A stretch of DNA of 64,000 nucleotides from a virus, in the IMG/VR virus record IMGVR_UViG_3300027857_000001, positions 1 to 64,000 of that record. The stretch is one strand, 5' to 3'. The translations under genes were made by a program, and so were the position numbers. Below the pieces are notes generated by a model. That model did not search any database. It was not told the origin of the DNA and saw nothing but the letters and a program-made list of their open reading frames with translations. Shown here piece after piece: positions 21,720 to 51,948 of this stretch. Position 1 is the stretch's first letter. Each line of letters starts with the position of its first letter.

Positions 21720-23077
21720 CAGGTCAGTCCGCCATCCCGCTCGATGTCAGGTCGCTCAGCACCGGGTTTCGCCGGTCCTATCGCCGATCCCTCCTAGCGC
21801 GGCTCAGTAAAGGCAGTGAAATATGAGTGTGCTAGTATCTCAGCGTGAGCAGCCGGGTGGTGAAGCGGGCGTACAAGTACCGCTTCTACCCGACCCCGGA
21901 GCAGGCGGAGCTGCTGAACCGGACGTTCGGGTCGGTGCGGTACGTGTACAACCGGGCGCTCGCGGAACGGTCCCGGGCGTGGACACAGGACCAGAAGCGG
22001 GTCACGTTCGCGGAAACCTGCCGGATGCTCACCCAGTGGAAAGCGGACCCGGAGACATCCTGGCTGTACGAGGTATCCAACGTCGCGCTCCAGCAGGGGC
22101 TCCAGCATCTCCAGCAGGCATACCTGAACTTCTGGGGCAAACGCTCCGGGTACCCGACGTTCAAATCGAAACGGAAGTCGCGGGCATCAGCGACGTTCAC
22201 AACCTCGGGGTTCCGCTACCGGGACGGGCAGATCACGCTGGCGAAGATGGATGTCCCGCTGGATATCCGCTGGTCCCGCCCGCCGCCCGAATGCGCGGAG
22301 CCGTCCACGGTGACGGTCAGCCGGGACGCGGCCGGACGGTGGCATGTCTCGATCCTGGTCGAGGAGACGATCGAGCCGCTTCCCCCGGCGCCAGCATCGG
22401 CGGTTGGGGTCGATGCCGGGATAACGTCGCTGGTGACCCTGTCGACCGGGGAGAAGATCACCAACCCGAAGTGCGAGAAACGGGACCGCGCCCGGCTGGC
22501 GAAGGCGCAGCGGAACCTGGCCCGCAAGCAGAAAGGCTCCCGCAACCGGGCCAGAGCGCGCGTCAAGGTCGCCCGCGTGTATGCCCGGATCACCGACCGC
22601 AGGACCGATTTCCTGCACAAGTTGTCCACGAGGATCATCCGCGAGAACCAAACGGTGATCATCGAAGACCTGACCGTCCGCAACATGCTCAGGAACCATT
22701 CCCTGGCCCGCGCGATCTCCGATGCGTCCTGGTCGGAGTTCCGCAGGCAGCTGGAATACAAGGCGGACTGGTACGGCCGCACCGTCATCGCGGTCGACAG
22801 GTTCTACCCGTCGAGCAGGACATGCTCTGCGTGCGGCCGCCTGGCCGCGTCGATGCCGCTGAACGTCCGGGAATGGGCGTGCCCCGCGTGCGGCACAGTC
22901 CACGACCGGGATATCAACGCCGCGAGGAACATACGAGCTGCCGGGCTGGCAGTGCTTGCCTGCGGAGATGGCGTAAGACCTGCCCGCACGTAGTGCTGGT
23001 AGGCGACCGTCCGTGAAACAGGAACCCCGGCCCGTGAGGGCCGAGAATCCCCTCCCTGAAGGAAGGGGAGAAGTCAA
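21720..23077 (+). mobile_element. IS200/IS605-type element carrying tnpB only
   Basis: Boundaries approximate. The right end carries a hairpin CCCCTCC-CTGA-AGGAAGGGG (23049-23068) followed by AGAAGTCAAG, the usual right-end shape of these elements. The transcript across tnpB into this end would supply the guide RNA (omega RNA) of known TnpB systems. No tnpA is present, so it would need help in trans to move. The element lies between the two inverted DDE insertion sequences. Confidence 0.65.
21845..22993 (+). CDS. tnpB: TnpB RNA-guided nuclease, intact
   Basis: 382 aa, GTG start. N-terminal AYKYRFYPTPEQAELL is the TnpB beta-barrel start. RuvC residues are all present: D190 (VGVDAGI), E274 (VIIEDLTVRNML), and the DRD at 354-356 (HDRDINAARNI). 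Zinc site C327/C330 and C346/C349. Length is that of compact active TnpBs. Known members are RNA-guided nucleases that maintain their transposon; guide RNA comes from the right end. Confidence 0.9.
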   Translation: MSSRVVKRAYKYRFYPTPEQAELLNRTFGSVRYVYNRALAERSRAWTQDQKRVTFAETCRMLTQWKADPETSWLYEVSNVALQQGLQHLQQAYLNFWGKRSGYPTFKSKRKSRASATFTTSGFRYRDGQITLAKMDVPLDIRWSRPPPECAEPSTVTVSRDAAGRWHVSILVEETIEPLPPAPASAVGVDAGITSLVTLSTGEKITNPKCEKRDRARLAKAQRNLARKQKGSRNRARARVKVARVYARITDRRTDFLHKLSTRIIRENQTVIIEDLTVRNMLRNHSLARAISDASWSEFRRQLEYKADWYGRTVIAVDRFYPSSRTCSACGRLAASMPLNVREWACPACGTVHDRDINAARNIRAAGLAVLACGDGVRPART

Positions 23078-24489: not shown

Positions 24490-24670
24490 TTTTCAGGGGT
24501 CCTGAAAGCCGCCATCGGCAGGAATTGTTGCTTTTCTAATATGGGCGAACTCGCGGGTTAATCCGGCCGCGCGCCTGCCGCGACGATGCTGAGAAGCCGG
24601 TGTGGCGTGGACGATTGGCCACGCCTGGCTATACTCTCAAGCAGCGCCTCAAGTAGCGCAGGCTGAATCG

Positions 24671-24744
24671 TGCCCCAGGCAGGGTTCCAACCTGCGACTG
24701 TCGGCTTAGCAGGCCGGCGCTCTATGCGACTGAGCTACTGGGGC
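24671..24744 (-). tRNA. tRNA-like gene with GCU anticodon and class I (short) variable loop
   Basis: The minus strand folds as a full cloverleaf: acceptor GCCCCAG/CTGGGGC, D stem GCTC/GAGC, anticodon arm CGGC-CTGCTAA-GCCG with GCT at 34-36, variable loop CAGTC, and T arm GCAGG-TTGGAAC-CCTGC; discriminator A; CCA not encoded. GCU reads serine AGC/AGU codons, but bacterial tRNA-Ser has a long variable arm and this one does not. G19 is C and C56 is G, so the usual 19-56 tertiary pair is swapped. It may be charged with another amino acid or not function in translation. Confidence 0.8.
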
Positions 24745-28935: not shown

Positions 28936-29446
28936 GGCAGCGGCATACCCGGTTTCCCTTGACGCCCCCGGCCAGGTTCTGTTCTTCTCGGCGTCAGGCG
29001 CCGGGTCCCTCCCGGAGACCATCGCCCTGTTCGCAGTATCGGGCGGGACGCTCGTGCACAGCGAGTCAGCGACGTGGGCCGGCGCGGCCGGGAGCGGCTG
29101 GGTGCGGGCGTCGTTCAGCAGCCCGCCGTCCCTCACCGTGAGCACGAACTATGTCGCCGCTGTATTCGATTCTGGTGGCTTCAACTGGTACAGCGGCACG
29201 CACAACTACTGGGACACAGGCGCCGGCTCGGGCGGCATCACTAACGGGCCGCTGTCCGCGCCGAACAACGCCGGTGCAGCGCACGGCCAGGACGCATTCG
29301 ACAACTCCGGGCCGCTGGCGTTCCCCACCACCAGCTTCCAGGCCACCAACTACTGGATGGACCCCGAGGTCACCGTCACGGCCGCGACGGCAGGGAGGCC
29401 TCCCCTGATCGCCGGCCAGGCCGTACAGCGCGCAGCCGCCTGGTAA
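28936..29446 (+). pseudogene. 5'-truncated DUF4082-like domain of a tail or surface protein
   Basis: A frame without any start codon at its left end encodes APGQVLFFSASGAG, then TNYVAAVFDSGGFNWYSG, GPLSAPNNAG and FPTTSFQATNYWMDPEV, the DUF4082 pattern found in actinophage tail fibres and secreted proteins. The start is missing, so it is a fragment unless read from GTG 29054. Confidence 0.6.
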
Positions 29447-29473
29447 CACCCTCTCAGACCGGAAGGACCCGGC

Positions 29474-29674
29474 ATGCTCTACACCGCCTGGACCAACGCC
29501 GACGTGGCCCTCACTGCGGCGACCGCCAAGACCGCACTGTACATCATCCCCCCGGCCGGGTTCGGCTACCAGCTGTGCGTGGTGGAAATCGGCGTCGAGT
29601 TCGAGGGTGCGGTCCAGGGTACCGACTGCCTGACCGAGCTCGTCGAGTCCACCGCCGCTTCGAGGTCCGCCTGA
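29474..29674 (+). pseudogene. Small tail-associated protein, 3'-truncated
   Basis: ATG 29474 after GGAAGGA. WTNADVALTAATAKTALY and VVEIGVEFEG resemble small proteins that follow DUF4082 tail proteins in actinophages. Coding character ends at about 29650 (ELVESTAAS), where cas1-like sequence begins in another frame, so the stop at 29674 lies past the junction. Confidence 0.5.
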
Positions 29675-29865
29675 AAGGCGCGGAACTGTCGTCGGTCCGG
29701 GTCCTGGACGTGTCGCAGATCTGCATACGCGGCAACGCCATGGTGACCGCGCAGGCGCTGCGGAAGGCGCTGGCCGCGCAGATCCCGGTGTGCTGGTTCT
29801 CCTACGGCGGGTGGCTCAGCGGGATCACCACCTGCCGGGGAAGAACATCGAGCTGCGCCGCCGCC
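29656..29865 (+). pseudogene. cas1: Cas1 fragment, frameshifted
   Basis: The frame from 29656 reads RFEVRLKGAELSSV, LDVSQICIRGNAMVTAQALR and PVCWFSYGGWLSGIT. This is the central strand-helix region of Cas1, closest to the form seen in Cas4-Cas1 fusions (family memory). At about 29833 the match moves to another frame (LPGKNIELRRR), which is the next conserved Cas1 stretch, so a small indel is present. The N-terminus and the nuclease C-terminal domain are missing. Confidence 0.75.
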
Positions 29866-30257
29866 GCAGCTGCGGCTTCCCTCGCCAGGGCAAGGGCTGC
29901 TTTCGCCGCCCGCACCGCATCCTCCGCGGCGATGATGGCCGCCGGGTTCCCTTGCCGCTTCGCGTACCCGAGGCGGGACTTCGCCCTCGAGAGGGCTTGC
30001 CCGGCGGACTCGGCGGCCCCCTCCGCCTCGCGGAGGGCCGCGAGGATCGGGGTAACCTGCGGGTCAGCTTCCCAGGCGGCGTCCTTCTCCTCCTGGTACT
30101 TCCGCTCGGCCGCGACGTCCTCGTTGGCCAGCTCGTGCACGCGGCGGACCTCTGCCATGACCGGGTCCTGTACCGGGCCCCGGACCCGGTACCGGTACGC
30201 GATCGGCACGGTCCCAGGCGCGGCGCCCTCTCCGGTTCCGTCCATCGTGATCACCAT
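29860..30257 (-). pseudogene. N-terminal part of a Cas12m-like (type V) effector
   Basis: On the minus strand, from ATG 30257 (or 30245), about 130 residues: VPIAYRYRVRG, then VMAEVRRVHELANEDVAAER, AAWEADPQVTPILAALREAE and a long Ala-rich coiled coil. The order and spacing match my recollection of Cas12m (V-M, formerly V-U1) N-termini: a YxW/YRY strand, an LAHN/RVHE helix, a WSSYP/WEADP turn, then a coiled coil. Coding stops at the junction with the cas1 piece. An unrelated coiled-coil protein is the alternative. Confidence 0.5.
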
Positions 30258-30413
30258 CCGGGGTTGTCTGTTAACGGTCAGAAAGGATACTCCCGGAGTC
30301 CGGGATAATGTGCCGGTATGACGGGCTCTGCAGTACTTCGCCCGGCATGCGCGCCGCCCAGGGACCCGAACCCTGGTGTATGCCATCACGGCCGCCTTCC
30401 GTACTTCGCCGCG
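30258..30413. other. Spacer between the effector fragment and the secreted protein
   Basis: Contains the dyad CCCGGAGTCCGGG (near 30291-30303) upstream of the effector fragment, and a 6-bp stem CCAGGG/CCCTGG (30358-30363 with 30371-30376) with a 7-base loop that looks like a tRNA T arm on the minus strand. No gene seen. Confidence 0.3.
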
Positions 30414-32522: not shown

Positions 32523-34168
32523 TGGCGTACGCGGAGCGGGTGAGATCCCCGAAGGGCGACTACTGGCGCGGCCGGTACCAGGACCCTGACGGCCGGTACC
32601 TCACCGTGCGGGACGCAGGCGGCCGGGTCATAAGGTACCCGGCGAAGCTGGACGCCGAGCATGGTGCCGACGACGCCGAGTCAGCGGTCCGCGGCGGCGA
32701 CTGGATCGACCCGCGTGCGGGGCTGGTCACGTTCGGGGAGTGGGCCAGCGCGTGGTACAGGAAGCAGGACCTGGCCGAGTCCACGATGGAGAACTACCGG
32801 CAGCACCTCGTGTACCACCTGCTGCCGTATTTCCAGCACAAAGCCCTCGCCGACATCAGCGAGGAGATGATCGGCAAATGGGCCCGGTCAGAGAGGGCCA
32901 GGGGCTACGAGCCGGACAGCATCAGGACCTGGCGGGCCACCCTGCACACCTGCCTGGAGGACGCGACAGGCACGCACATCAGCGTGAACCCGGCCACCCG
33001 GAAAAGGGGCAGGGGGAAGAGATCGGGCCGCGCCGCCGGGGACAGCGCCGAGGAGAAGATGATCACCGACCCGCTCGGCGTCCTGCTCATCGCCGAGCGG
33101 ATGGCGATACTCTCCGGCCGCGACGACGAGCTCGTCATGGTCGTCACGGGATTCTGGGATGCGCTGCGGCTCGGCGAGACTGTCGGCCTGGAGAGCAGGT
33201 ACGTGCGTCCCCGGACACTGCGGGTGGACTGGCAGCTTCACGAGATCGGCGGGAAAGACCCCGGGACCGGCGCCCCTGGCGGCCGGCTGGTGCGCTGCCC
33301 GCCGAAAGACGGATCGAGGGGGACGCTGGACCAGCCGCAGTTCCTCGCCCGCCTGCTGGCCGAGCACATCATGCGGACCCGGCCGGAGCCATGCCCCTGT
33401 CACGGGAAGACCTACGTGTTCCGCGGCATGGGCATCCCGCGAGGCCCGCGCGGCTCCATGTCGATGCGTGAACTGGCCGCCCTCGCCGGGGTGTCGGAGA
33501 CCGTGGTCGCGACGGTGCTCGGCAAGCCGGGCCGCGTCAGCGAGCAGACACGCCGTCACGTCGAGGCTGTCATCGCCGCGTGCGGCTACCGGCGGGAGGC
33601 GGGGACGGACCGTCCCGCGTGGCACTGGCGCAGGTCCGCGTTCGAGGAACTGTTCACGGCTGCGGCATCGGGATGGCTCCCGGCCCGCGCGCCCCTGCCG
33701 CGCCGCCCCGTCCCGGTGGCCGGGGACTGGCCGGGCATGCGGGTGCGGGGCCGCAACGCGCAGGGCCGGGCGCAGTTCTGCTGGCTTCCTGTCGCCGAGG
33801 GGCTCACTCCTCACGGGCTGCGCCACTCGGCGAAGACGTGGATGGAGGAGGAGGGGATACCGGAGGTGCTGAGCGAGCAGCGGCTGCGCCACGAGATCGC
33901 CGGGATCTCCGGCCGGTACCGTCACGTGACGCAGAGGATGCGCGACGAGCTCGTGGCTGCGATGACGGCGGCGTGGGAGGGCGCGCTGGACGCGCGGCTG
34001 GCGATGTCGGAGCGCTCGCCGGCAGCGGTGCTCGACACGCTGCTGCGGGAGCGGCTCGAGGCGCGCAGGCCCAGGGCCGTCCCCAGGAATTCCCCAGAAA
34101 CAAGTGAAGCGGTGCTCCCGTTTCCTCGGGGCACCGCCTCTGACCTGGGTCGGGGTGGCCGGATTTGA
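32522..34168 (+). CDS. int: Tyrosine integrase with an internal LacI-type HTH domain
   Basis: 548 aa. N-terminal SAM-like/AP2-type part: RGRYQDPDGRYLTVRD and FGEWASAWYRKQDL. Catalytic part: FWDALRLGETVGLE (first Arg), TPHGLRHSAKTWMEEEG (HxxR) and ISGRYRHVTQR (Tyr). At residues about 315-360, between the first Arg and HxxR, MRELAALAGVSETVVATVLG then RVSEQTRRHVEAVIAACGY is a complete LacI-family HTH, which is not part of the integrase fold. The frame is open across it. It ends inside the att core. Confidence 0.9.
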   Translation: MAYAERVRSPKGDYWRGRYQDPDGRYLTVRDAGGRVIRYPAKLDAEHGADDAESAVRGGDWIDPRAGLVTFGEWASAWYRKQDLAESTMENYRQHLVYHLLPYFQHKALADISEEMIGKWARSERARGYEPDSIRTWRATLHTCLEDATGTHISVNPATRKRGRGKRSGRAAGDSAEEKMITDPLGVLLIAERMAILSGRDDELVMVVTGFWDALRLGETVGLESRYVRPRTLRVDWQLHEIGGKDPGTGAPGGRLVRCPPKDGSRGTLDQPQFLARLLAEHIMRTRPEPCPCHGKTYVFRGMGIPRGPRGSMSMRELAALAGVSETVVATVLGKPGRVSEQTRRHVEAVIAACGYRREAGTDRPAWHWRRSAFEELFTAAASGWLPARAPLPRRPVPVAGDWPGMRVRGRNAQGRAQFCWLPVAEGLTPHGLRHSAKTWMEEEGIPEVLSEQRLRHEIAGISGRYRHVTQRMRDELVAAMTAAWEGALDARLAMSERSPAAVLDTLLRERLEARRPRAVPRNSPETSEAVLPFPRGTASDLGRGGRI

Positions 34169-34364
34169 ACCGGCGGCCTCTTCGTCCCGAAGAAAGTAGC
34201 CGTAAGTTCACGGGTTACGTTAAACCAGGATGTTCTCACTGTTCCGACCAGGACGTTTTCGGTTCGCCAGGTCAGAGGCCCAACGGCAAAGTCGCGTTCA
34301 GCGGCGTTCAGCGATATCCGCTCACGTTCACGGCTAGTCTCGTCCCCAGGAATTCCCCAGAAAC
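34078..34364. other. attP-like site: tRNA-Pro(CGG) 3' half with flanking arm repeats
   Basis: Core 34148-34191 reads on the minus strand as the 3' half of tRNA-Pro(CGG), from the anticodon loop TTCGGGA to the acceptor end. The 5' half is absent. A 24-bp direct repeat (CGTCCCCAGGAATTCCCCAG plus AAAC, 34078-34101 and 34341-34364) lies on both sides. CGTTCAGCG (34295-34303, 34305-34313) and GTTCACGG copies (near 34206 and 34326) add further arm-type sites. A hairpin at 34109-34137 near the integrase end may be its terminator. Region 34169-34484 holds no gene. Confidence 0.65.
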
Positions 34365-34484: not shown

Positions 34485-35618
34485 GTCTCAGCAGATACGG
34501 CGCTGAGCGGACGTTGCGGCCGCAGAGGCCCCAGGGTCGAGGCGCTATTGAGGTGGATGTCTCAGCAGGTACGCACCCGAGCATGCGTTACCACCGCAGC
34601 CCGGCGGAGACTCGTGTTGCGTCGGCATCACGTCTCAGCGTTTACGCAGCTGAGCATGCGTTGCGACTTGACCGGGGTAGCGGTCAGGCCGACCAGGTAG
34701 GCGTCGTCTCAGCGTTTACGCAGCTGAGCATGCGTTACGACAACGCGCACGAACACAAGCGCACCTGGGACAGCCGGGTCTCAGCGTTTACGCAGCTGAG
34801 CATGCGTTGCGACCAGGACGAGGGCTCCACCCGCGGCCAGTCTCAGCTCAGTCTCAGCAGGTACGCAGCTGAGCATGCGTTGCGACGCCGCATGCACTCA
34901 TGGCACGGGTAGGTGGTGGTGGTCTCAGCAGGTACGCAGCTGAGCATGCGTTGCGACTCTTACAGGGTATGCTTCACCGTTCCTGGGATAACGGAGGTCT
35001 CAGCAGGTACGCAGCTGAGCATGCGTTGCGACCGCGCACACGCCACTGGCTTCGCTGCCTCGGCGTGGGTCTCAGCAGGTACGCAGCTGAGCATGCGTTA
35101 CGACGTCCAGGGTGCCTTCAGCCGCACGCTCCACCCACAGCGTCTCAGCAGGTACGCAGCTGAGCATGCGTTGCGACGCCGCATGCACTCATGGCACGGG
35201 TAGGTGGTGGTGGTCTCAGCAGGTACGCAGCTGAGCATGCGTTGCGACCGCGGAGTGGACATCCCGCCCGACGCATGGGATCTGAGGTCTCAGCAGGTAC
35301 GCAGCTGAGCATGCGTTGCGACTAGCGCTAAATTAGTGCTAACTTACCGTTGCGTGTGGTCTCAGCAGGTACGCAGCTGAGCATGCGTTGCGACCATGAG
35401 CGCGCCAGGATTGCCGAAGCGGTGCTTGAGTTCGTCTCAGCAGGTACGCAGCTGAGCATGCGTTGCGACCTTAACGTTGCCCTAGATCGAGTGCAACCAT
35501 TAATCCCGGTCTCAGCAGGTACGCAGCTGAGCATGCGTTACGACCGTAGGACAAACGTGAGGAGGCGACGACCATGGACATGGTCTCAGCAGGTACGCAG
35601 CTGAGCATGCGTTACGAC
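34485..35618 (-). CRISPR. CRISPR array, 16 repeats and 15 spacers, no intact cas genes
   Basis: 36-nt repeat starting GTCTCAGCAGGTACGC and ending GAGCATGCGTTGCGAC on the plus strand; spacers 35-39 nt. Repeats start at 34485, 34559, 34632, 34706, 34778, 34851, 34922, 34997, 35069, 35142, 35213, 35287, 35359, 35434, 35509 and 35583. The first two are degenerate and repeats 3-5 share a variant (GTTTACG), so the left side is the old, leader-distal end and transcription probably runs leftward. In that direction each repeat carries a CUCAGC/GCUGAG stem two bases before the spacer, as in type V crRNA handles. Spacers 6 and 10 are identical. Confidence 0.9.
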
Positions 35619-36012
35619 CGCTCCCGGTTTTCACCGGGTATGGCCTGCGGGAATGCGGTGGCTTGCGAGCGGTCCTGAATGCTGGCCTCTAGCGGCTTAA
35701 CCGCCGCTCAATCCAGCCAGGGTTCGTGCCGTGTGACCTGCACGCGAGCGGCCCCCGGGGGTTCCGGGCACCACCGGGCCGCTCGCACGGACAGCCCGGG
35801 GGACGTTCAGTACAGCGGACAGCAGCAGAGCTGTCCCGGGCAGGCTCCCGCATCTGCGCCGGCCAGGGATGCCTGGCTGCGCGCGGTGAACCTGCCGCCC
35901 CGTCAGTGGCGGACGGGCACGCCATGGGTTATGGACTTGTCAAGAAACAGCCTGCACCGGAGTCTACCGGCGCAGGCTTAGCCTGTCGTCAGGCGTGGCC
36001 GCCGTGAGCCGG
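35619..36012. other. Array-flanking region, probable leader side
   Basis: No gene seen in 394 bases. CCCGGT/ACCGGG (35624-35638) lies right after the last repeat. A strong 11-bp dyad GCGAGCGGCCC (35744-35754, pairing with 35776-35786) may be a terminator for the leftward winged-helix gene region or a protein site. A clear minus-strand promoter was not found. Confidence 0.4.
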
Positions 36013-36672
36013 TTATGCCGTTGCCGGGACCGGCTGGATACCGCCGCCTCGCGCCTCAGCGTACGCACCGGCCCAGTCCCGGGTGAAGTACAGCCGGTCA
36101 CCATCCGGGGCGACGCAGCCATGCTCGGTGAGCACGTCGATCTCCTCCGGGAGCAGCACCGACGGGTCGTAGCCGGCGCGGTCGAGCGCGGTAGAGGCGT
36201 CGTACAGCATCTCGGCCACGGCCTCCAGCCCTGCCAGCCGCTCAGCGGCGGCGTCGCGGCGTATCTCCAGCTCGCGCAGCTGCCTCTCGGCGATGCGCAG
36301 GTCGCTTTCCGCGTGCCTGAGCTCCCGCGTGGCGGCTGCCTTGCGCTGGTCGAGCCGTCGTTTCCGTGCGTTGAGCCACCTGCGGTGCTGCTCCATCCGG
36401 AGCTTCGCCGGGACCTGCGGCCGTTCCCTGGCCTGCTCCAGGCCCTTCTCCGAGATCCGGTAGAAGATCGGCGGCCGGCCGGGCTTCCCTGTCGGCATGG
36501 GCTGCCGGTCGATGATGCCCTCGGCCACGCCGGCTTCCAGCCAGCGCCGCACTGTGCTGAGAGACGGGTTCCTCGTCAGGGCCAGGCCCTTGTTCCAGGG
36601 CCTGCGCGGCTGCTGTTTCGCGACGGCCGCGGTGATGGCCAGTGCGGTCTTCAGCTTGCGGCGGTTGCTCAT
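36013..36672 (-). CDS. Winged-helix protein with coiled coil
   Basis: 219 aa. N-terminal HTH: NPSLSTVRRWLEAGVAEGII then GKPGRPPIFYRISEKGLEQA, which is a helix-wing layout as in PadR/MarR-like proteins. The middle (AAATRELRHAESDLRIAERQ onwards) is a coiled coil of about 70 residues. A short C-terminal part ends QPVPATA. Last gene of the leftward early operon; start overlaps the zinc-finger gene (ATGA). Confidence 0.65.
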   Translation of the reverse strand: MSNRRKLKTALAITAAVAKQQPRRPWNKGLALTRNPSLSTVRRWLEAGVAEGIIDRQPMPTGKPGRPPIFYRISEKGLEQARERPQVPAKLRMEQHRRWLNARKRRLDQRKAAATRELRHAESDLRIAERQLRELEIRRDAAAERLAGLEAVAEMLYDASTALDRAGYDPSVLLPEEIDVLTEHGCVAPDGDRLYFTRDWAGAYAEARGGGIQPVPATA

Positions 36673-50611: not shown

Positions 50612-50701
50612 TTAAACGTTCCGCGGGTTCTCGGCATAGCGCTTGATGACCTCCAAGGTTGCGCCGCCCACCGTGGCGACGAAATAGCTGCTTGTTCACA
50701 G
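50612..50701 (-). pseudogene. tnpA: TnpA (Y1 transposase) C-terminal remnant
   Basis: On the minus strand SSYFVATVGGATLEVIKRYA then ENPRNV and stop. SYFV-x-x-x-GG-x-x-x-E-x-I-x-x-Y is the C-terminal helix of IS200/IS605 TnpA. Everything before this, including the catalytic part, is gone. Confidence 0.7.
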
Positions 50702-50769
50702 AGCCGGCAGGCGCCGGCGCAGCGACGGGAACTCCCGCCGCAACTGCGCCGTGCTGTAGCGTGGATGGT

Positions 50770-51948
50770 GTGTTCGAGACGGTGCGCTACACCTACCGCC
50801 TGCGCCCTGGTACGCAGGCGGAACGCGCGCTGCTTGACGAGTGGGGCCGGTGCCGCTGGCTGTGGAACGAGGCCGTCAACCAGCGCAGGACCGGGCGCAA
50901 GCCGACGTTCTGCAAGCTGTCCAAGTTGCTGACCGCGGCACGAGCGGCAAACGAGTGGCTCCGCGAAGGTTCGCAGGTCGCGCAGCAGCAGACGCTGCGG
51001 ACATACATGCTGGCCCTGGACCACTCGTTCAAGGTCAAGGGACGGCGCACGCCGGTGATCAAGCGGCGCAAGGACACCCTGCCGTCGCTTGAGTACACCG
51101 TGCGCGGGTTCTCTGTCCGCGATGGCCGCCTGTGCCTGCCCAAGGGCGTATCGGTACCCGTGGTGTGGTCCCGCGACCTGCCGTCTGCCCCGTCGAGCGT
51201 CCGCGTCTACCAGGATTCGCTGGGCCACTGGTACGCGTCGTTCGTCGTCACCCGCGAGGCTGAGCCTGCGCCGGAAGCCAGCGGGAAGATCGGCATCGAC
51301 TGGGGTATCAAGGTCACGGCCACGGCCACGGACCCGGCTTACGATCTGCCGTACGGTGGGCACAGGAAACGCTGCGCGGCTGAACTGGCGAGGGCGCAGC
51401 GGAAGATGAGCAGGCGCCGCAGGGAACGCGGCCAGCCCCAGTCGAACGGGTACCGCTGTGCCAGGCGGGAAGCAGCGGAGCTCCACAAGAAAGCCGCACG
51501 GCAGAACACCCACGCGGCCCGCGTGTGGGCACGGCGGATAGTGGACCATCACCAGGTAATAGCCGTTGAGGACTTCAGGCCGCTGTTCCTGGCTAAGTCC
51601 ACGATGGCGCGTAAGTCCGCTGATGCCGCGGTAGGTACCGCGAAGCGGGCGCTGATCGAGTATGGCAAGCGGGCGGCCCGGAAGGTGGTGCTGGTTCCGC
51701 CCGCCTACACGACGATGACGTGCGCTGAGTGCGGTACGAGAGCCAAGGAACGCCTCACGCTCGCCGAACGGGTCTTCGTGTGTACGGCCTGCGGATGTAT
51801 CGCGGGCCGTGACGCGAACGCCGCGAGAGTGATTCTCGCCCAGGGTGAACGCATCCTGGCTGGTGCTGACGACGTAAGACAACTCCCTTGCCTCCCTTCA
51901 GGGGTAGCGGGCGGAATGCGGTCTGAGCCAGGAATCCCCCGGCACTAG
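50770..51948 (+). CDS. tnpB: TnpB RNA-guided nuclease, intact
   Basis: 392 aa from GTG 50770, 7 nt after TAGCGT, so possibly leaderless (GTG 50761 is an alternative). FETVRYTYRLRPGTQAERAL is a typical start. RuvC residues D177 (IGIDWGIK), E267 (VIAVEDFRPLF) and D348 (AGRDANAARV); zinc site C318/C321 and C338/C341. Different lineage from the tnpB at 21.8 kb. The right-end RNA would be its guide. Confidence 0.9.
   Translation: MFETVRYTYRLRPGTQAERALLDEWGRCRWLWNEAVNQRRTGRKPTFCKLSKLLTAARAANEWLREGSQVAQQQTLRTYMLALDHSFKVKGRRTPVIKRRKDTLPSLEYTVRGFSVRDGRLCLPKGVSVPVVWSRDLPSAPSSVRVYQDSLGHWYASFVVTREAEPAPEASGKIGIDWGIKVTATATDPAYDLPYGGHRKRCAAELARAQRKMSRRRRERGQPQSNGYRCARREAAELHKKAARQNTHAARVWARRIVDHHQVIAVEDFRPLFLAKSTMARKSADAAVGTAKRALIEYGKRAARKVVLVPPAYTTMTCAECGTRAKERLTLAERVFVCTACGCIAGRDANAARVILAQGERILAGADDVRQLPCLPSGVAGGMRSEPGIPRH

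Follow-up and report, generated by a model that had tools for sequence, protein, structure and literature searches.

Array layout and phage setting

The window, a 64,000-nt stretch of DNA comprising bases 1–64000 of a 135,301-bp IMG/VR contig, contains a CRISPR array of 16 repeats of 36 nt and 15 spacers of 35–39 nt, 14 of them distinct, at exactly the position reported in an initial annotation made from the sequence alone (Table 1). Repeats start at 34485, 34559, 34632, 34706, 34778, 34851, 34922, 34997, 35069, 35142, 35213, 35287, 35359, 35434, 35509 and 35583, a start-to-start spacing of 71–75 nt, and spacer 6 is identical to spacer 10, the two lying inside an exact 107-nt internal duplication (34851–34957 = 35142–35248). 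Of the 11 right-hand repeats, eight have one and the same sequence and three depart from it solely by a C/T difference at crRNA position −32; three mid-array repeats share a 3-nt loop variant (AAC instead of CCT), and only the leftmost two (34485 and 34559) are degenerate. From this polarity we infer a leader on the right and transcription to the left, with the minus strand as the crRNA strand, in agreement with the leftward reading first proposed; no sigma-70 consensus promoter was found in the presumed leader (35619–35948). Regular, near-identical repeats, differing spacers and degeneracy at one end are the features of a CRISPR array, and a comparably regular array is not expected by chance. 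The refuting condition set at the outset, a commonplace dispersed repeat with unvarying spacers, is excluded, as the spacers differ and the repeat core is confined to the array, with no copy elsewhere in the 135-kb record.

Table 1 Features of the array, the integration site and the cas relics (window coordinates unless stated)
Feature	Position	Strand	Remarks
Exact 678-bp copy of record 124328–125005	28981–29658	+	Stops where cas1-specific sequence starts
cas1 relic, internal segment of N-terminal domain	29659–~29868	+	Abuts/runs into cas12m relic; apparent frameshift near 29835
cas12m relic, ~first 120 codons of ~600-aa effector, rest deleted	29856–30212	−	In open frame 29805–30413
Tyrosine integrase, 548 aa	32522–34168	+	LacI-type HTH inside (residues 314–358), between integrase domains
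24-bp direct repeat flanking attP, copy 1	34078–34101	+	Likely integrase arm site
attP-like core, tRNA-Pro(CGG)-like 3′ half	34148–34191	−	Anticodon loop to T arm + acceptor
24-bp direct repeat flanking attP, copy 2	34341–34364	+	
CRISPR array	34485–35618	−	Leader-distal end at 34485
Two degenerate leader-distal repeats and the spacer between	34485–34594	−	
Leader-proximal repeat	35583–35618	−	crRNA-sense consensus GTCGCAACGCATGCTCAGCTGCGTACCTGCTGAGAC
Presumed leader/promoter region (~330 bp)	35619–35948	−	Array to upstream hairpin
Terminator-like hairpin, 12 pairs, 9 G-C	35949–35978	−	Between leftward gene 36013–36672 and array

The record, although classed as linear, carries an exact 127-bp terminal repeat (record positions 1–127 = 135175–135301), which indicates a complete circular genome of 135,174 bp. 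It encodes a terminase large subunit, a portal protein and an FtsK-like protein, with a weak tape-measure match at its left end. Together with the integrase, the terminal repeat and these terminase, portal and tape-measure matches place the array in a phage genome and not in a bacterial contig; what was initially described as a phage-like element is a complete circular phage genome. The terminase shares 50–54% identity with its counterparts in Actinoplanes phage phiAsp2 and Streptomyces phage TurkishDelight, which points to an actinobacterial host, and we read the genome as that of a temperate phage of high-GC actinobacteria. The portal match lies in a 1254-aa open-reading frame (record 107801–111565, plus strand) that also has a weak RNA-ligase match at its C-terminus.

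To the left of the array, the integrase gene runs into a partial tRNA-like sequence, which we take to be that of tRNA-Pro(CGG) and in which ARAGORN detected no complete tRNA. This 3′ half and its flanking 24-bp repeats would form the attP of a phage integrating at a tRNA gene, in which case array and integrase would come to lie at opposite ends of the prophage. The distance of about 120 bp initially given between array and attP-like site holds for the right-hand 24-bp repeat. A homologue of the integrase on Streptomyces plasmid pSITFR-21c (43% identical) is annotated simply as a LacI regulator. A tRNA-Ser(GCT) gene is present at 24670–24744 (minus strand), within an IS-rich region of nested, inverted near-duplications (17258–18788/25996–27525, 78%; 20395–21716/23159–24489, 76%), which carry DUF5753-type regulators and DDE transposases and surround a TnpB gene at 21845–22990.

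Typing of the repeat

The crRNA-sense repeat, GTCGCAACGCATGCTCAGCTGCGTACCTGCTGAGAC, can form an H-type pseudoknot (ACGCA/TGCGT and CTCAGC/GCTGAG) that leaves AC at the 3′ end. The 36-nt scaffold of the Cas12m2 crRNA pairs C(−22)–C(−17) with G(−8)–G(−3), beside A(−2) and C(−1), and has a second stacked stem; measured against it, the register of the phage repeat is the same on the 3′ side and shifted by one nucleotide on the 5′ side (PMC10442227). Comparison with typed CRISPR repeats, one of the checks proposed at the outset, was made using repeats from arrays beside genes for Cas12m relatives, for which eight reference loci were fetched. The V-M repeat of A. silvanus pMESIL02, GTAGCAACGCCTAGCTCAGGGGCTTGAAGACTGAGAC, is identical to the phage repeat at 26/37 positions, and the repeats of Virus Rctr197k, CTCACAAGAGAAGCTCAGATCTTTGGGTTCTGAGAC, and Pelobacter pPRO1, GTTGACATGCGTGCTCCGCCGCTTTGTAGTGGAGAC, at 22/36 each; all three arrays adjoin cas12m-like genes. 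A shuffle test on pairwise repeat alignments is weak when taken alone, an unrelated I-C-like control having also beaten its shuffles, at a lower score.

Single-sequence RNA folding did not favour the repeat (z ~0), because it leaves out pseudoknots, and covariation was used instead. Across 19 repeat variants, which come from four loci and are hence non-independent, the pseudoknot positions pair in 88% of cells, vs. 26–44% with the partner slid, and seven of the 11 pairs are changed on both sides; the loop variants in the phage array leave both stems unbroken. Judged on its nucleotide sequence and these pairings, the repeat is assigned to the V-M type. The Cas12m-type pseudoknot is present, but an intact Cas12m with RuvC and TNB domains was not found, the TNB hits elsewhere in the record belonging to TnpB-family proteins, and we regard the array as very probably V-M-derived and orphaned inside the phage.

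The closest named relatives are the V-M (V-U1) loci of Allomeiothermus silvanus pMESIL02, M. mucogenicum and Gordonia otitidis, with which the phage shares a 36–37-nt repeat of the same pseudoknot register (CAACGC...GCTCAG...CTGAGAC), a cas12m gene, here a relic, and a compact locus on mobile DNA. It differs from them in that the effector is cut to ~120 N-terminal codons, in that the array lies 4.3 kb from the cas12m relic, on the other side of attP, and in that a cas1 relic adjoins cas12m, whereas none of the eight reference loci has an annotated cas1 next to its cas12m.

Relics of cas12m and cas1

The initial annotation found no intact cas gene in the window; this is correct, and is equally true of the genes predicted across the entire record, but two cas relics had been missed. 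The first is matched by the PADLOC profile Cas12u1 (V-U1, now Cas12m) at 29856–30176 on the minus strand, over profile positions 13–112 of 533 (E = 5e-8 in the record; E = 6.2e-8 for the relic protein). In phmmer against the PDB it matches 8pm4 from residue 21 (E = 3.7e-4), an entry titled ‘Transposase’, which aligns over its full length with MmCas12m2 (the sequence used being identical to PDB 8hio over 596 aa) and presumably represents the Gordonia Cas12m structure described in PMC11013384. A tblastn search of a 6.5-kb region with the M. lentiflavum Cas12m covers 29856–30212 (E = 2.9e-8), and a profile built from six Cas12m proteins gives a domain i-Evalue of 1.3e-5. The relic is short and partly coiled-coil and each single E-value is moderate; the match begins near the Cas12m N-terminus and ends after ~120 residues.

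The second relic matches positions 11–102 of PF01867 (E = 8.5e-10), and its best PADLOC profile is Cas1g. It shares ~40–42% identity (tblastn) with the Cas1 of I-G Cas4-Cas1 fusions, and a search of genome contigs led to two I-G Cas4-Cas1 loci; searches of viral contigs for the cas12m relic and the integrase gave no matches. Near 29835 the reading frame appears to shift, the conserved LPGKNIELRRR running on in another frame. The likeness to I-G ends with Cas1, however, as no cas4, cas2 or I-G effector gene was found in the phage, and the repeat near one I-G locus is dissimilar to the phage repeat. Instead of an intact Cas4-Cas1 fusion with cas2, the phage thus retains a cas1 segment only.

The two genes were formerly convergent, and a deletion took both 3′ parts. 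On its 5′ side, cas1 is cut at 29658/29659, the end of the 678-bp copy, of which the second copy (record 124328–125005) holds an intact structural-region gene and the first only the initial ~60 codons of that gene; the 5′ disruption of cas1 involved phage DNA. With a V-M-type repeat and separate relics of cas12m and cas1, the locus is a decayed phage-borne V-M locus. As there are zero differences between the 678-bp copies, the orphaning may be recent, unless gene conversion keeps them identical, and well-preserved repeats are consequently no proof of current use. The initial observation that most repeats are nearly identical stands, but the claim drawn from it, that the array was in use until fairly recently, cannot be derived from the state of the repeats alone. 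That reading was right in outline and is supported in part; it was too strong on recent use and lacked the relics that explain the orphaning.

At 678 bp, the repeat exceeds the terminal overlap of 127 bp in length, and a false join might have arisen at it, through which a bacterial array and cas relics became attached to a phage contig. Swapping at the repeat would give two arcs, of which one (29659–125005) holds the array, integrase, cas relics, terminase and portal together, while the second arc has the tape-measure match, which a phage requires as well, and the first copy carries a truncated version of the gene that is intact in the second. An assembly artefact is accordingly very improbable.

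Profile scans found no intact cas effector or adaptation gene among the predicted proteins of the record, the PADLOC scan excluding a 993-aa open-reading frame at 83571–86552 and a few frames at locus boundaries. Three proteins gave matches to Cas12f/V-U models (21845–22990, 50659–51945 and record 104954–106420), which we read as TnpB-family transposon proteins. TnpB proteins use their own end-derived RNA. As RuvC/TNB-domain proteins of the same genome, one of the three might be thought to serve the array as an unusual effector, but their matches to the Cas12u1 profile are confined to the C-terminal catalytic part, none of their genes adjoins the array, and Cas12m, to which the repeat is suited, has left a relic of its own, so we give this idea hardly any credence.

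Spacer targets and possible use in trans

Searches of the spacers against phages and plasmids, also proposed at the outset, returned no significant match in 50,697 phage records and 72,556 plasmids, including when relaxed to E 10, and no target was found in 15 related records (terminase relatives) or in the phage itself. Degenerate or exact patterns of spacers 11, 3, 13 and 15 found nothing in IMG/VR. The best lead is spacer 15 (35545–35582), whose nucleotides 1–24 match 21/24 positions in Rimavirus gp59, at chance level (E = 4), beside a 5′-TTC that fits a T-rich PAM. Spacer 12 (35323–35358), which is AT-rich and partly palindromic, matches a Weissella cibaria plasmid exactly over 24 nt, in a segment without annotation (E = 0.3). 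Spacer 3, DAYLVGLTATPV, resembles by inspection what we take to be a helicase motif. Taken together, the spacers are slightly more coding-like than shuffled sequences (11 of 500 shuffles reach the observed score), and less so than windows of the phage's own genes. Lack of targets is common for environmental spacers and is no refutation of function.

Searches of some 85,000 genomes and of IMG/VR gave no match to the repeat core, so there is no known host with a matching Cas12m. A search for Cas12m in 397 genomes of one phylum found none, but its controls were equally silent, so this result carries no weight. Action through host Cas proteins, as first suggested, is thus possible but unproven, the repeat occurring in no searched genome or phage and no spacer having a significant target.

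The best explanation overall, to which we assign a probability of roughly 0.6, is that a V-M locus was lost in the phage and its array was kept for a Cas12m supplied in trans. The phage would once have carried or captured a V-M CRISPR-Cas locus with cas12m and a convergent cas1, and a rearrangement within its genome would have removed most of both genes, leaving the stubs and a nearly whole array. As the phage no longer makes a Cas12m, one would have to be provided by the host, by a plasmid or by a phage infecting the same cell. A leftward pre-crRNA would be processed and loaded by Cas12m in the same cell, whether of the host, a plasmid or another phage, and the complex would bind protospacers beside a short T- or C-rich PAM and so, with no cleavage, keep competing elements from being transcribed or replicated. 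Cas12m apparently matures its pre-crRNA unaided, and its binding silences the target (PMC11013384); V-M systems are over-represented on plasmids and also occur in some prophages (PMC11656645). The array, its V-M-type repeat with the covarying pseudoknot, both relics, the phage setting and the failure to detect an intact effector in the phage are direct results, whereas transcription of the array, loading by a Cas12m supplied in trans and a present benefit to the phage are what we infer.

That the array is still used in this way, with Cas12m from the host or a coresident element, is a tentative proposition, to which we give somewhat less than an even chance. The existence of an annotated phage with a full-length cas12m-like gene beside its array supports the overall explanation, and the lack of a significant protospacer counts against it; present use is made less likely by the rarity of V-M systems, by the absence of the repeat core from the searched genomes and IMG/VR, and by the possibly recent date of the cas break. 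A bolder version, in which the phage lineage had a V-M system equipped with Cas1-based adaptation, in contrast to the plasmid V-M loci that lack it, and the array is now a guide library arming a host or plasmid Cas12m to silence competing phages without cutting them, seems unlikely.

Nearly as likely as use in trans is that the V-M locus was destroyed and the array is a recently silenced relic without function, its regularity reflecting how recent the loss was. The truncation of both cas12m and cas1, the break of cas1 at a duplication with zero differences, the degenerate repeats at the distal end and the failure to find a spacer target or matching effector all fit this reading, and if the break is recent, the good state of the array can be explained without selection at present. 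Gene conversion could nevertheless have kept the duplication exact, or its insertion could postdate an older decay, and neither the leader-proximal repeats nor the boundary on the leader side is damaged. Transcription of an orphan phage array is moreover on record: cyanophage N-1 transcribes its array, which has no cas genes, during infection (PMC4916379).

Retention of the repeat structure after loss of the phage effector could also suit an RNA decoy, in which harmless phage crRNAs, loaded by way of the repeats, occupy a V-M effector of the host and blunt immunity against this phage in the manner of RNA anti-CRISPRs (Racrs). Inhibition by repeat-mimic RNAs is documented for several CRISPR-Cas systems, V-A among them (PMC10651486). 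The Racrs known so far consist of a single repeat unit, though, in place of the 16 repeats seen here; the 14 distinct spacers include none targeting the phage itself, and no host V-M is known, which leaves a decoy improbable.

Returning to the kept array with Cas12m in trans, phage-borne arrays without effectors are already known, and what sets this one apart is the V-M type and the cas12m and cas1 stubs. Arrays without an intact effector, for which Cas proteins in trans have been proposed, are found in cyanophage N-1 (PMC4916379), as SPV mini-arrays (PMC6858448), in landfill phages (PMC12607003) and, as cited in PMC4916379, in C. difficile prophages; the mini-arrays of archaeal viruses act between viruses (PMC6858448). 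Such cas-less phage arrays are either typed to host systems, as with the type I-D-like repeat of N-1, or are mini-arrays of one or two spacers. The present array differs in being of V-M type, in having 15 spacers and in lying in a phage with relics of the array's own cas genes; viral mini-arrays carry 1–2 spacers against related viruses, and none of the 15 spacers here has a significant target in the sets searched.

V-M effectors, which silence their targets and do not cut them, have been found chiefly on plasmids. A temperate phage with a V-M-type array, cas stubs and a fragment of a structural-region gene at the break represents a case in which the effector gene was lost and the guide library persists, and offers a system in which to ask whether a trans-supplied CRISPR effector that only binds DNA is put to use by phages. 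It also raises the question of whether an adaptation gene was once part of some V-M loci.

The 197-kb tailed phage Virus Rctr197k (KX853510), from a different, non-actinobacterial enrichment culture, likewise has a V-M-type array, of ~20 repeats, with a similar repeat and similar loop variation. Unlike in the present phage, its cas12m-like gene is full length (622 aa; 623 codons with the stop), has no internal stop and lies directly beside the array. The region studied in Rctr197k (106483–119931) also contains a second array with a different repeat.
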